A stretch of 40,852 nt of DNA from Desulfotomaculum sp. (lineage in GTDB: Bacteria > Bacillota > Desulfotomaculia > Desulfotomaculales > Desulfallaceae), in contig JAENYQ010000026.1 in NCBI GenBank assembly GCA_016841675.1, positions 1 through 40,852 of the forward strand, given 5' to 3'. Below, piece by piece: positions 10,462-28,449 of this stretch. The notes beneath the pieces are model-generated. The model was given only the letters and a program-made list of their open reading frames with translations. It made no database searches and was not told where the DNA came from. The position numbers were made by a program, and so were the translations under genes. Position 1 is the first letter of the stretch, and each line of letters starts with the position of its first letter.

Positions 10462-10778
10462 TAAGGAGTCAGTACTCAGTAGTCAGGAGTCAGGAGTCAG
10501 AATTGGCCTTTGGGATTGTCATCCTGAGCGTAGCGAAGGATCTGGGCTTTAAGATTCTTCGCTGCGCTCAGAATGACAGCTTAATGACAAGGTTTTTCAC
10601 TTAGTTGTATTCATAGCAATGACAGATTCGTTGTATTCGTAGCAATGACATAAAAAAGTTCAACATAGCGCAGTAGATTTCATTAACTGTTGGAGCCGGT
10701 TAGGACGGTTAGGGACATAATTGTTTTGACTACTGACTACTGACTACTGAATACTGAATTTAAAAAGGAGGCGTACCA
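10462..10778. repeat. Composite repeat insertion within spoIIIA (R5-R2-R4-R5)
   Basis: In order: R5 heptamers (AGTCAGTACTCAGTAGTCAG, about 10467-10500), an R2 palindrome (10518-10577), R4 units (TTGTATTCATAGCAATGACA and a near copy, 10583-10650), and inverted R5 (TGACTACTGACTACTGAATA, about 10728-10757). The outer R5 blocks are inverted relative to each other, so the whole looks like an insertion placed exactly between stop codon and next Shine-Dalgarno. Its small ORFs are not genes. Confidence 0.75.
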
Positions 10779-22981: not shown

Positions 22982-23872
22982 ATGAATTTTAGGGATGAAC
23001 TGGCCGAGCGGGCAAAAATGGTAAACAAAGTGCTGGATCAATTTCTGCCTCCCGCGAACGCCTACCCGCCATCAATTCACAAGGCCGTCCGGTACAGCGT
23101 ATTCGCCGGCGGCAAAAGGCTGCGACCAATCTTGGTGTTGGCCGGGGCAGAAGCGGTAAGGGGCTGCGCAGAAACAGTAATGCCTGCTGCCTGCGCCGTT
23201 GAATTGCTGCATACATACTCTCTGGTGCACGACGATTTACCTGCCATGGACAACGACGACCTGCGCCGGGGCCAACCCACCTGCCACAAAGTCTTTGGTG
23301 AAGCAGCGGCTATTCTGGTGGGAGACGCCCTGCTCACGTCGTCTTTTGCGGTTTTGGCTCAACTATCGCAAAAAGCCGGCGTCCCTCCGGAACGGGTGGT
23401 GCGGGTGATTTCCGAACTGGCCGAGGCGGCCGGGACCCAAGGCCTCATCGGCGGCCAGGTGGCAGACCTGGCTTCGGAAGGCGATACTGTTGACCAAGAT
23501 ATGCTGGAGTACATCCACACCCGAAAAACCGGGGCTTTAATTAGGGTCTCGGTACGCGCCGGAGCCATATTATCCGGTGCATCCGAAGAGCAGCTTAAAA
23601 AACTGACCGGTTACGCCAATAACCTGGGGCTGGCTTTTCAAATTGTAGACGATATTCTAGACGTTGTAGGGGACGAGCAGGTCATCGGCAAGCCGGTGGG
23701 CAGCGACCAGCGGAATCATAAAGCAACCTACCCCGCGTTGTTCGGCCTGGATGCTGCTAAGCAAAAAGCCGCCGCAGCTGCAGAAATGGCACTGGCATCG
23801 CTGAACAGATTTGGTGCAGAAGCTGATTTTCTGCGCGGTCTCGTCCACTTCGTGATTACCCGCAACCAATAA
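22982..23872 (+). CDS. ispA: Farnesyl / geranyl diphosphate synthase (polyprenyl synthetase)
   Basis: The 296-residue trans-prenyltransferase condenses dimethylallyl diphosphate with isopentenyl diphosphate into C10-C20 chains. The first aspartate-rich motif is DDLPAMDNDD with RRG after it (about 82-94), and the second is DDILDV (about 223). The substrate-binding FAGGKRLRPILVLAGAEAV lies near residue 40. It is coupled to xseB by a 2-nt gap. In relatives this gene is followed by the OLE locus and dxs; here a transposase unit has inserted 1 nt after its stop codon. Confidence 0.95.
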   Translation: MNFRDELAERAKMVNKVLDQFLPPANAYPPSIHKAVRYSVFAGGKRLRPILVLAGAEAVRGCAETVMPAACAVELLHTYSLVHDDLPAMDNDDLRRGQPTCHKVFGEAAAILVGDALLTSSFAVLAQLSQKAGVPPERVVRVISELAEAAGTQGLIGGQVADLASEGDTVDQDMLEYIHTRKTGALIRVSVRAGAILSGASEEQLKKLTGYANNLGLAFQIVDDILDVVGDEQVIGKPVGSDQRNHKATYPALFGLDAAKQKAAAAAEMALASLNRFGAEADFLRGLVHFVITRNQ

Positions 23873-23873
23873 G

Positions 23874-24829
23874 GGGGTCAGGCTCTTAACTTATTAACTT
23901 ATTGTTGTGGCTCTGCGCACATCCTGTTAAAATTACAGACGGGGGTGTAATTTTGGCTAGAAAGCAGCGCATTGAATATCCGGGGGCGTTGTACCATGTA
24001 ATACAGCGGGGAAATAACCAAGAACACATATTCGAACGTCCTGAATATAAAGATAAAGTTATTGAACAGTTGCGGAAAATGGTATTGGTGGATGGCATTG
24101 AATTATTTGCCTATGTAATTATGAGCAATCATTATCATCTAGCCCTGCGCACCAACACAGAACCGCTGAGCAGGGTGATGCACCGCATCAATACCGTTTA
24201 CAGTATGTATTATAACCGTACCGGGAAACGGTCGGGCCACGTTTTTCAAGGCAGATATCAGGCCATACCTGTGCATGATGAAAAATACCTCCTATCCCTA
24301 ATTACATATATCCATCGCAACCCGGTCCGGGCGGGTATAGCTGATAATGTAGCAGATTATCCCTGGTCCAGCGATCGACACTACCGGCAGATGGAACCAG
24401 GTTTTGTAGCATTTGAATTTGTTTTAGATCAGTTATCCAACAGCCGGAAAAACTCTTTACGAGAGTATAACCTGCTTATGAAACAGAATGTTGATTTGGA
24501 TTTGGATTTGCCGGATGTAACCGAAGTTATTGCTCCTGCTGCTGATTGGTCTGAAAAACCTGCCCCGGACCGGAGGTCGCTGAAAGATGTTTTAATGGCT
24601 GTTATAAATGACCAGGAAGAATATGAACTGATTAGAAAAGGCTCCAGGATTAGAAAACTGATGTCCAGCAAGGAACAATTTGCCAAAACGGCATTGGAGC
24701 ATGGATATTCGATGCAGGAAATTGCCCGCTATATCGGTGTTTCGCCGGTGGCGGTGTGTAAATATATCAACAAGCAAGATTAGAAAAATTAAATTATCAA
24801 ATAAGTTAATAAGTTAAGAGCCTGACCCC
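23874..24829 (+). mobile_element. RAYT transposase unit bounded by 30-bp R1 arms
   Basis: The 956-bp unit is delimited by GGGGTCAGGCTCTTAACTTA plus ten more bases (23874-23903) and its exact inverted copy (24800-24829). The same arms close into the solo hairpins at 8567-8639 and 22642-22721. Read together, the transposase gene sits where the hairpin loop would be. I see no target duplication, as expected for HUH enzymes. Confidence 0.8.
23953..24783 (+). CDS. REP-associated tyrosine transposase (Y1_Tnp, HUH family)
   Basis: The protein is 276 residues from TTG 23953, which follows GGGGGTG. The Y1 transposase domain covers about residues 1-130: YPGALYHVIQRGNNQEHIF, then the metal-binding HUH pair H60 and H62 in SNHYHLALR. 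The catalytic tyrosine is Y112 or Y119 in DEKYLLSLITYIHRNPVRAG. A C-terminal extension ends in a helix-turn-helix (HGYSMQEIARYIGVSPVAVC, about 250-270). Such enzymes cut single-stranded DNA at hairpins. The matching arms around it suggest that the R1 hairpins are its substrates. The reading frame is intact. Confidence 0.9.
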   Translation: MARKQRIEYPGALYHVIQRGNNQEHIFERPEYKDKVIEQLRKMVLVDGIELFAYVIMSNHYHLALRTNTEPLSRVMHRINTVYSMYYNRTGKRSGHVFQGRYQAIPVHDEKYLLSLITYIHRNPVRAGIADNVADYPWSSDRHYRQMEPGFVAFEFVLDQLSNSRKNSLREYNLLMKQNVDLDLDLPDVTEVIAPAADWSEKPAPDRRSLKDVLMAVINDQEEYELIRKGSRIRKLMSSKEQFAKTALEHGYSMQEIARYIGVSPVAVCKYINKQD

Positions 24830-24914
24830 ATTAGAAAATTGATATAAAACGGTCGCCTGTATTGAAAACAGTCTTTAGGGGTCATAATTGATAATAAGAG
24901 GTCAAAATAGACAT

Positions 24915-24943
24915 TTGCTGTGCATATGGCGGCATGCTATAAT
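24915..24943 (+). promoter_or_regulatory. Sigma-A promoter of OLE RNA
   Basis: TTGCTG (24915-24920), a 17-nt spacer and a perfect TATAAT (24938-24943). Transcription would begin near 24950, about 19 nt before the closing helix of the RNA. Confidence 0.75.
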
Positions 24944-24949
24944 TCTCAC

Positions 24950-25558
24950 TGATGAAATATTTATTTGTACAAGTGACACAGTATCCTAGTCGGGAACCCT
25001 TTTTTGAAGGCGGGCCTAAAAATCCGTTAAGGGCACATCAATGAAGTTCCTGGTGCTGGCTGCTGACGCCCAGTTGGGGGTCGGTACTGGGAGTTAAGGG
25101 GGCGGGGCGACCCGCAATGGCATGTGGGCGTTGACCCTGCCCCCGCGGAGACCCGTGTGCGTGGAAGTATTAGTTATACGACTATGGCTCGGGTATAAAC
25201 CTGCACGTGGGGAAAGCTGCGTGCAGTGTAGCCTGCCTTGAGTGGTGCCGGTGGAGGTCCATTAAGCGGCATACTGGTGTAAGGGCCCTTACCCTATATG
25301 CTTCGGGTTTAAACCGTCATTGCAAAAGAGGCTAAAAAAAGGTACTCCTGTAGAGGAAAACTCCTAGGCTGTACGGTTGAGAAACGGTGACGGTACGGGG
25401 ATTATAGTGTGGACTAAGTGGTAATCCAGCCACGGAATCGGTGACGATCCGGGATTTCGTTTAAAGGGAAACCGCCAGTTTGGTGACAGCTGGTACGGAA
25501 TTGGGAAAACCTGCTGGACCTAAGCCACAACATTTACCCGTATCGTTGTCACTTGTCA
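24950..25558 (+). ncRNA. ole: OLE RNA (ornate, large, extremophilic RNA)
   Basis: A roughly 600-nt gap without a credible ORF lies between ispA and oapA-dxs, the canonical position of OLE RNA. It is GC-rich compared with its flanks. The ends pair perfectly (ACAAGTGACA 24969-24978 with TGTCACTTGT 25547-25556). Inner helices include CTGCACG/CGTGCAG (25201-25226) and CGGAATCG/CGATCCG closed by GTGA (about 25434-25452); GGTGAC occurs three times in the 3' third. From family knowledge, OLE forms a membrane-associated ribonucleoprotein with OapA and is linked to Mg2+, alcohol and cold stress tolerance. Identification rests on context, size and structure, not on an alignment. No terminator follows it, so read-through into oapA is possible. 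Confidence 0.88.
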
Positions 25559-25639
25559 GCAATACATAACCAATACAGTAGCTTCGATATTGAATCATTA
25601 CTATAATCACAAAGGTATATAAACCCTGGAGTGGATCAG

Positions 25640-26206
25640 TTGAAAAGCAATAAGTCTACAGTTTCCGGCAAGTACATAATATTTGTCGGTTTTATTTCTT
25701 TTATCATCGCCGCGCTTTTCTTTCTACTATCTGAATTTTTTGCCCGCGCTTTAAACAGCCCCATATTATCTTTTATTTTCTTAAACGTGATTATTCTTGT
25801 CGGCATTACCTCTGATCTGGTGGGCACATCAGTGGCGGCGGCAGATGAAAAACCTTTCCACGCCAAGGCCTCCAAACGGGTTAAAGGTGCCCGTGAAAGC
25901 GTCCTCTTAATTCGTAACGCCGACCGGGTAGCCAATATTGCCAACGATGTGGTGGGAGACATCGCCGGCACTGTCAGTGGCGCTTTAGGTATTGCCTTAG
26001 TACTGCAGATTATTCAAATGTGGGAGGATTTGCAGCTAACCACATTGAACATGTTGATTACGGCGTTCATTGCCTCTCTTACAGTAGGGGGTAAGGCATT
26101 CGGCAAAAAGATAGCTCTCAGTCGCCCCAACGATGTTATTTTTTTTGTCGGCCGGTTAATAGCAACAATTAGCGGAATAACTGGCATCAGGGTGGTAAAA
26201 AAATAA
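25640..26206 (+). CDS. oapA: OLE-associated membrane protein OapA
   Basis: The protein is 188 residues from TTG 25640, which has TGGAGTGG about 6 nt upstream; GTG 25631 is closer to it and less likely. There are about four hydrophobic segments: YIIFVGFISFIIAALFFLLS, FIFLNVIILVGITSDLVGTS, a region around GTVSGALGIALVLQIIQM, and LNMLITAFIASLTVGG. The loop EKPFHAKASKRVKGARESVL and LIRNADRVANIANDVVGDIA is the most family-like part (DUF21-related). In relatives OapA binds OLE RNA and brings it to the membrane. Its place between the RNA and dxs is the standard arrangement. Confidence 0.9.
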   Translation: MKSNKSTVSGKYIIFVGFISFIIAALFFLLSEFFARALNSPILSFIFLNVIILVGITSDLVGTSVAAADEKPFHAKASKRVKGARESVLLIRNADRVANIANDVVGDIAGTVSGALGIALVLQIIQMWEDLQLTTLNMLITAFIASLTVGGKAFGKKIALSRPNDVIFFVGRLIATISGITGIRVVKK

Positions 26207-26210
26207 TACC

Positions 26211-26282
26211 AGTAGTCAGTAATCAGTAATCAGTAATCAGTAATCAGTAATCAGTAATCAGTAATCAGTAATCAGTAATCAG
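26211..26282. repeat. Tandem heptamer AGTAATC, nine copies
   Basis: AGTAGTC is followed by nine perfect copies of AGTAATC (26218-26280) starting 5 nt after the oapA stop codon. This is an expanded form of the R5 heptamer and a likely slippage hotspot. Confidence 0.9.
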
Positions 26283-26517: not shown

Positions 26518-28449
26518 TTGGGCGGTTTTTTAGAACATATTAACTCCCCGCAGGACTTACAAAAGCTTAATATGTCCCAACTGAAACAGCTTGCTGCGGA
26601 AATAAGGCAAACTATTATTAATACCGTGGCCGTCAACGGCGGACACTTGGCGCCCAACCTTGGCGTTGTGGAATTGACTCTGGCCTTGCACCGGGTTTTT
26701 CAGACCCCCCGGGACAAAATCATCTGGGATGTCGGTCATCAAAGTTACGTGCACAAGTTAGTTACCGGCAGGCGGGAAGAATTTCATACCCTACGCAGTT
26801 ACGGAGGTTTAAGCGGTTTTCCCCGTCCGGATGAAAGCGAACACGATGCCTTTGCCACCGGCCATAGCAGTACCTCAATATCTGCGGCCCTGGGCTTGGC
26901 TTTGGCCAGGGATCTCAAAGGCGATAAAAACTCCGTAGTGGCGGTAATCGGTGATGGGGCTATGACAGGCGGGATGTCTTTTGAAGCTTTGAATCACGCC
27001 GGCCATCTGAAAACCGACCTAATCGTGGTGCTTAATGACAATGAAATGAGCATTTCCCATAATGTGGGCGCCATGTCAAGATATCTGACCAGGATCAGGA
27101 CCGACCCCAAGTACTCCAAAGGCAAGGACGAATTTGAACAGCTAATGAAGCGCATCCCTTCCATCGGCTCGACCGTGCTCAAGTTTGCCGAGCGGTTTAA
27201 GGATGGCCTAAAATATTTTCTGGTCCCGGGAGTTATTTTCGAGGAACTGGGGTTTACTTACCTGGGTCCGATTAACGGGCATCACATTTCATCGATGATT
27301 AATACTCTTGAACAGGCCAAAACCCTGGGCGGGCCGGTTCTGGTACACGTAATTACCGAAAAGGGTAAAGGATATGCCCCGGCGGTAGAAAAAGCAGACA
27401 TGTTCCATGGCATCGGGCCTTTTGACGTTAAATCCGGTACCTGCATTAAAAAAAGTGACACCAGTACTTACACCGAAGTATTCGGACGCACACTAGTGCG
27501 GCTGGCCGAGCAGGATCACCGGATCGTGGCCATTACCGCGGCGATGTGCAGCGGCACCGGCCTGGCCGAGTTTGCTCATCATTTCCCCGGACGTTTTTAC
27601 GATGTGGGTATTGCTGAACAGCATGCCGTGACGCTGGCGGCAGGGCTGGCCAAAGCCGGCCTTAAACCGGTGGTGGCTGTGTACTCCACGTTTTTACAGC
27701 GGGCTTACGACCAAATTATCCATGACGTATGTTTGCAGAATTTGCCGGTGGTGTTTGCCATTGACCGGGCCGGCATTGTGGGCGATGACGGTCCCACCCA
27801 CCACGGTTTGTTTGATCTGTCGTTCCTCCGTGCAGTACCTAATATAAATATACTGGCCCCCACAAATGAAAAAGAAGTTCAGGATATGCTGTACACCGCT
27901 TTAAATGCCGAAGTACCATGCGCGCTGCGCTACCCGCGGGGAAACGGCCTTGGCGTAGCACTAGGACAGCAGTGGACCCAAATCCCCTGGGGCAAGGCAG
28001 AAGTCATTACCGAGGGCAGGGACATTACTATCCTGGCTGTGGGTAACATGGTACCGTTAGCTGTTCGAGCTGCTGAAATGCTTAAGGACGCCGGTGTATC
28101 GACAACGGTAATTAACGCCAGGTTCGTAAAACCTTTGGATGCCGAATGCATTATCCGCCATGCCAAGCGCACCGGACGGCTGATTACAGTGGAAGAAAAC
28201 GTATTGGCGGGCGGATTTGGTTCTGCGGTTCTGGAGCTTTTGGAAAACAAACCTGCCGATGGAATGTCAAATAATGAAATTAATGTCAAATGCCTGGGTA
28301 TTCCGGATGTTTTTGTGGAGCACGGCAGCCAGCTGCTGCTGCGTGAAAAATACGGTTTGTCCCCGGATTTTATAGCTGATACTGCCCTGGGTATGGTTAA
28401 GATGCACCCAAAACGTGCCAGGATAGTCAAGCTTAGCGGAGGTTCTTAA
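26518..28449 (+). CDS. dxs: 1-deoxy-D-xylulose-5-phosphate synthase
   Basis: The 643-residue thiamine diphosphate enzyme makes DXP from pyruvate and glyceraldehyde 3-phosphate, the first step of the MEP isoprenoid pathway. Visible are the [15 protein letters not shown] region (about 72), the thiamine motif [18 protein letters not shown] to LNDNEMSIS (about 147-180), the central [20 protein letters not shown], and the C-terminal transketolase domain ending [20 protein letters not shown] 26518 follows GAGGGTGAT. It ends 1 nt before tlyA. With ispA it brackets the OLE locus. Confidence 0.96.

Follow-up and report, generated by a model that had tools for sequence, protein, structure and literature searches.

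Here, we identify an intergenic interval of Desulfotomaculum sp. as OLE RNA, a known class of large structured RNAs, in an anaerobic bacterium resembling sulfate reducers. Judged by its sequence and at a probability of about 98%, the interval is a full-length OLE RNA with its own conserved promoter of the predicted sigma-A type, is followed by oapA without an obvious terminator, and would, by analogy with Halalkalibacterium halodurans, form part of a ribonucleoprotein particle. The features are collected in Table 1; the window is the whole stretch of DNA analysed, 40,852 nt in length.

Table 1. Features of the ole locus and its surroundings, in window coordinates
Feature	Position	Strand	Details
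ispA, farnesyl diphosphate synthase	22982..23872	+	NF045485 E 1.7e-116
REP-associated tyrosine transposase element	23870..24833	+	gene 23902-24783, NF047646 E 4.4e-25
ole promoter (putative)	24915..24943	+	-35 TTGCTG 24915-24920, 17-nt spacer, extended -10 TGCTATAAT 24935-24943
OLE RNA (ole)	24957..25568	+	~612 nt; RF01071 511.7 bits, E 2.3e-147, model 1-616 of 616; fold z -6.2
Terminal helix, 5' arm, joins OLE ends	24969..24978	+	ACAAGTGACA; perfect complement of 25547-25556
P4 hairpin, A-rich loop CCUAAAAA	25009..25028	+	UAAAAAUCCG conserved in 29/30 aligned OLE RNAs
Loop 5, GCCC	25068..25071	+	GCC in 30/30 aligned OLE RNAs
Loop 6, GGC	25119..25121	+	invariant across alignment
GGGCCC palindrome, P9 loop	25283..25288	+	alignment and tree data
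GGUGAC (GUGA tetraloop), P13 tip	25482..25487	+	covariance-model match and alignment
Terminal helix, 3' arm	25547..25556	+	TGTCACTTGT; perfect complement of 24969-24978
oapA, OLE-associated protein A	25631..26206	+	GTG start, 191 codons; or TTG 25640, 188 codons
dxs	26518..28449	+	TIGR00204 E 1.2e-259

The identity of the RNA is carried by the covariance-model match. When the window was scanned against all Rfam families, RF01071 was the sole family to reach its cut-off anywhere in the 40.9 kb, and its score is about ten times the gathering score of 50 bits. The initial annotation had assigned the interval to OLE RNA and had named a failed match to the OLE model, or a better match to another class, as the result that would speak against it; this test was run, and OLE was matched over its full length with no rival family. 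The OLE strand is 6.2 standard deviations more stable in fold energy than dinucleotide shuffles, and a scan for open reading frames found none of more than 49 codons within the interval, as the claim of no credible reading frame had it. A search of the genome found one OLE RNA only, the copy in the window.

The fold is supported by covariation. In an alignment of 30 OLE RNAs, i.e., the window copy and 29 from relatives, the consensus fold has 161 predicted pairs, of which 86 show compensatory double changes. The perfect 10-bp helix that had been proposed to join the two ends of the RNA holds up on both counts: its arms are fully complementary, and double changes occur in 9 of its 10 pairs across the alignment, with 94.5% of cells paired and a covariation score of 0.59, compared to 0.28 for shuffled sequences and at most 0.24 when the arms are slid. 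These ends are unpaired in the structure line of RF01071. Because the published OLE model places stems P1 and P2 in the end domain (PMC12265935), the terminal helix presumably corresponds to one of these two. The loops through which OLE RNAs dimerise, loops 4, 5, 6 and 9, are all present and intact in the window copy (CCUAAAAA, GCCC, GGC and GGGCCC, respectively). In the published structures, the A-rich loop 4 makes the first RNA–RNA contact of the dimer (PMC12286853, PMC12265935), loops 5 and 6 are kissing partners (PMC12265935), and the GGCC of the P9 loop is a symmetric kissing loop (PMC12286853). The GNRA-type loops seen earlier are two GUGA tetraloops, both closed by a G-C pair, at 25440-25445 and at the tip of P13, where OapB binds in H. 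halodurans (PMC12054373).

The promoter had been described as near consensus, which is true of the -10 element only, since the -35 element agrees with TTGACA at just 3 of 6 positions. The -10 hexamer TATAAT (24938-24943) is preceded by TG at 24935-24936, giving an extended -10 element, and an exact TATAAT lies upstream of 35 of 41 OLE loci, always within TGNTATAAT; composition-shuffled OLE flanks contain TATAAT in 10.6% of cases. This conservation makes the promoter credible. The site is absent from the list returned by a generic, stricter promoter scan. From the position of the promoter, the 5' end of OLE RNA is probably near 24950, upstream of the model start at 24957. A terminator scan found no terminator-like hairpin between OLE RNA and oapA, the start of which lies 62 nt past the end of the RNA, and ole and oapA are therefore probably co-transcribed. 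The ole cluster of H. halodurans is reported as a polycistronic transcript (PMC12265935), while the window copy has a putative promoter of its own; both may hold.

Because no Pfam or NCBIfam model, PF01595 included, detects the protein encoded downstream of ole, it was identified as OapA by its relatives, motif, position and predicted fold. The protein also has no sequence match in the PDB. Its counterpart at the corresponding position in Peptococcaceae bacterium BRH_c8a shares 93% identity with it, and the 23 other relatives in the alignment share 41-76%; both Asp residues of the D106xxxD110 motif (D106-VVG-D110) are invariant in all 25 sequences. This DxxxD motif distinguishes OapA from CNNM domains, which lack it (PMC11332333). 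The predicted model (pLDDT 78) matches the CNNM protein MtCorB (7m1t) with a Z score of 12.6 and an rmsd of 2.4 Å over 129 residues, where a Z score near 13 calls for care with helical proteins. The four best VIA structure matches are all CNNM proteins (Z 10.7-12.6), and the next row scores 8.2. AlphaFold and DALI likewise assign a CNNM-like fold to OapA of H. halodurans (PMC11332333), with which our model agrees. The 188-residue gene that had been claimed as oapA thus stands, at 188 codons from the TTG start, which has a GGAG eight bases upstream. With its ~190 residues, basic loop, motif, predicted fold and position adjoining ole, the protein has no notable difference from known OapA, and the long helices that dominate its model are as expected of a four-helix membrane protein. 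Compared to the CNNM/MpfA/CorB Mg2+ transporters (PF01595), whose MtCorB its predicted fold overlays, it differs in being undetected by PF01595, in having DxxxD and in being without CBS or CorC_HlyC domains.

OapB and OapC had been placed outside the window, and both were found elsewhere in the same genome. OapB (91 aa; L050 13086-13361, minus strand) was recognised as the gene lying between map and infA, an assignment borne out by its match to the solved OapB structure (PDB 7k9b; E 5.8e-12); the KOW model PF00467 misses it and matches only two other proteins of the genome. OapC/YbxF is an 82-aa L7Ae-type protein (L051 845-1093, minus strand) between rpoC and rpsL, and matches Bacillus subtilis YbxF with an E value of 1.1e-15; the neighbours of both genes were named by eye. 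bS21 is also encoded (E 4.1e-22). Thus, the genes for all four OLE partners, OapA, OapB, OapC and bS21, are in the genome.

The genome also encodes one MpfA-type CNNM-CBS-CorC_HlyC protein (G000:C43:9263-9850, L052 553-1896). MpfA has been reported to anticorrelate with OLE, OLE-bearing species as a rule having at most one and exceptions being noted (PMC11332333), and its presence beside the OLE system here is such an exception. Among 41 genomes, a CNNM protein exceeds the cut-off in 14 of the 39 that bear OLE, the window genome included; thus, the anticorrelation is loose in this order.

The gene order in the window is xseA, folD, fchA-like, xseB, ispA, transposase element, ole, oapA, dxs, tlyA, NAD kinase, argR and recN, and a cluster of this ispA/dxs type has been published for OLE (PMC12265935, PMC12054373). 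The placement of ole between ispA and dxs is correct in its gene assignments; however, ispA is not immediately upstream, because the transposase element intervenes. This element is bounded by 34-nt inverted repeats of 97% identity. In the closest relative (L002), the sequences matching the window up to 23871 and from 24812 are only two bases apart, and the element is therefore absent there, leaving a clean empty site. Downstream of oapA, ten copies of the heptamer CAGTAAT lie at 26210-26282, within a segment of ~277 bp before dxs, reaching to about 26497, that is missing from the closest relative. Further 7-bp arrays lie in the window at 10464, 10727 and 13546.

The neighbouring mobile element bears on two other readings of the interval. 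A large, highly structured, intergenic RNA that adjoins a transposase gene could belong to some other kind, such as a group II intron, a cluster of riboswitches or a new class, and have no more than a likeness to OLE; with OLE matched over its full length at a score tenfold the gathering threshold, and with no other Rfam family reaching its cut-off, we give this reading a vanishingly small probability and reject it. It is also highly improbable, if less so, that the RNA is a decayed, non-functional copy disturbed by insertion of the element between ispA and ole. The element stops ~80 nt short of the -35 element; no damage is seen in the promoter, the terminal helix, any of the dimerisation loops or oapA; and the flank, RNA and oapA together are 91% identical to those of the relative without the insertion. 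Damage to ole by the element was rejected on these grounds, and a full-length, intact OLE RNA remains by far the best reading of the interval.

The window copy closely resembles the OLE RNAs of H. halodurans, Clostridium acetobutylicum and Clostridium botulinum, of which the latter two have been solved by cryo-EM, in its length, its full model match, loops 4, 5, 6 and 9 and the P13 tip. It also shares with known OLE loci the downstream oapA, the ispA/dxs/tlyA/argR/recN cluster and the OapB, OapC and bS21 genes in the genome, and differs from them in the transposase element and in the presence of the MpfA-type protein. Work in H. halodurans and clostridia describes a membrane-held OLE dimer with OapA, OapB, OapC and bS21 that functions in stress adaptation (PMC9723947, PMC12054373, PMC10898510, PMC12286853, PMC12265935). 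Extrapolating from H. halodurans and the cryo-EM structures, we infer that OLE RNA would be transcribed in Desulfotomaculum sp. and that two such RNAs would pair via loops 4, 5, 6 and 9. OapA, expected to bind OLE RNA 2:1, would then as dimers hold the RNA dimer in the cell membrane, while OapC would bind at the P5 kink-turn, OapB in the P13 region and bS21 in the P6 region. The resulting particle may aid adaptation to stresses such as cold, alcohols, high Mg2+ and poor carbon sources.

Among 85 genomes of the same order, each at least 90% complete, OLE is found in 80 and OapA in 78, and both are missing in five (G040, G058, G074, G075 and G076). Thus, OLE and OapA are found together and apparently lost together in this order, and the OLE RNA in the window is ordinary for its lineage, given its presence in 80 of the 85 genomes. 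One of the five genomes, G040, also has no CNNM protein. In Desulfosporosinus metallidurans (L025) and at a second locus (L023), oapA-like genes have no OLE adjacent within the fetched flank; each of these two genomes has one OLE RNA, scoring ~400 bits, elsewhere. As the initial annotation stated, the class is known: OLE RNA, its partners and its neighbourhood are all published. A 2024 survey reported 2,822 OLE matches in Bacillota (PMC11332333), and the window copy may be among them.

In two families of the order (f5 and f11), the contig that bears OLE is not the one that bears oapA (G019, G049, G050, G052 and G025). Three OLE RNAs unlinked from oapA were examined, namely L054 4894-5489 (G034:C26), L057 4998-5558 (G019:C90) and L058 4999-5566 (G025:C6), and these form one clade with a support of 1.0 in the OLE tree, in which the rows L042, L043, L063 and L064 are artefacts read on the wrong strand. 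All three are missing the whole P9 arm with its kissing loop and have a loop 5 that is two bases short. Two OLE genes are present in G034: the copy that precedes oapA (L055, 518 bits) and the unlinked copy (L054, 407 bits), which is antisense and flanked by rpmA and by a spo0B-like gene that lies upstream of obg (genes named by eye). Four oapA-linked relatives in the 30-sequence alignment are also without the P9 arm, and a published type of OLE RNA, variant 1, has a shortened P7-P9 (PMC11332333). We tentatively raise the possibility, which we regard as somewhat doubtful, that the order contains a second OLE lineage that is unlinked from oapA, lacks the P9 arm and has a shortened loop 5, with G034 keeping both forms and other genomes having the unlinked form only and a single oapA.

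The copy in the window leaves knowledge of OLE RNA unchanged. What it contributes is another well-formed member of the class, from a Desulfallas/Desulfotruncus-like lineage and accompanied by every known partner gene, and it shows that ole has a conserved dedicated promoter. If the unlinked lineage is real and expressed, it would provide a natural test of which RNA–RNA contacts the OLE dimer needs, and it could make it easier to tell apart what the individual parts of OLE RNA contribute.
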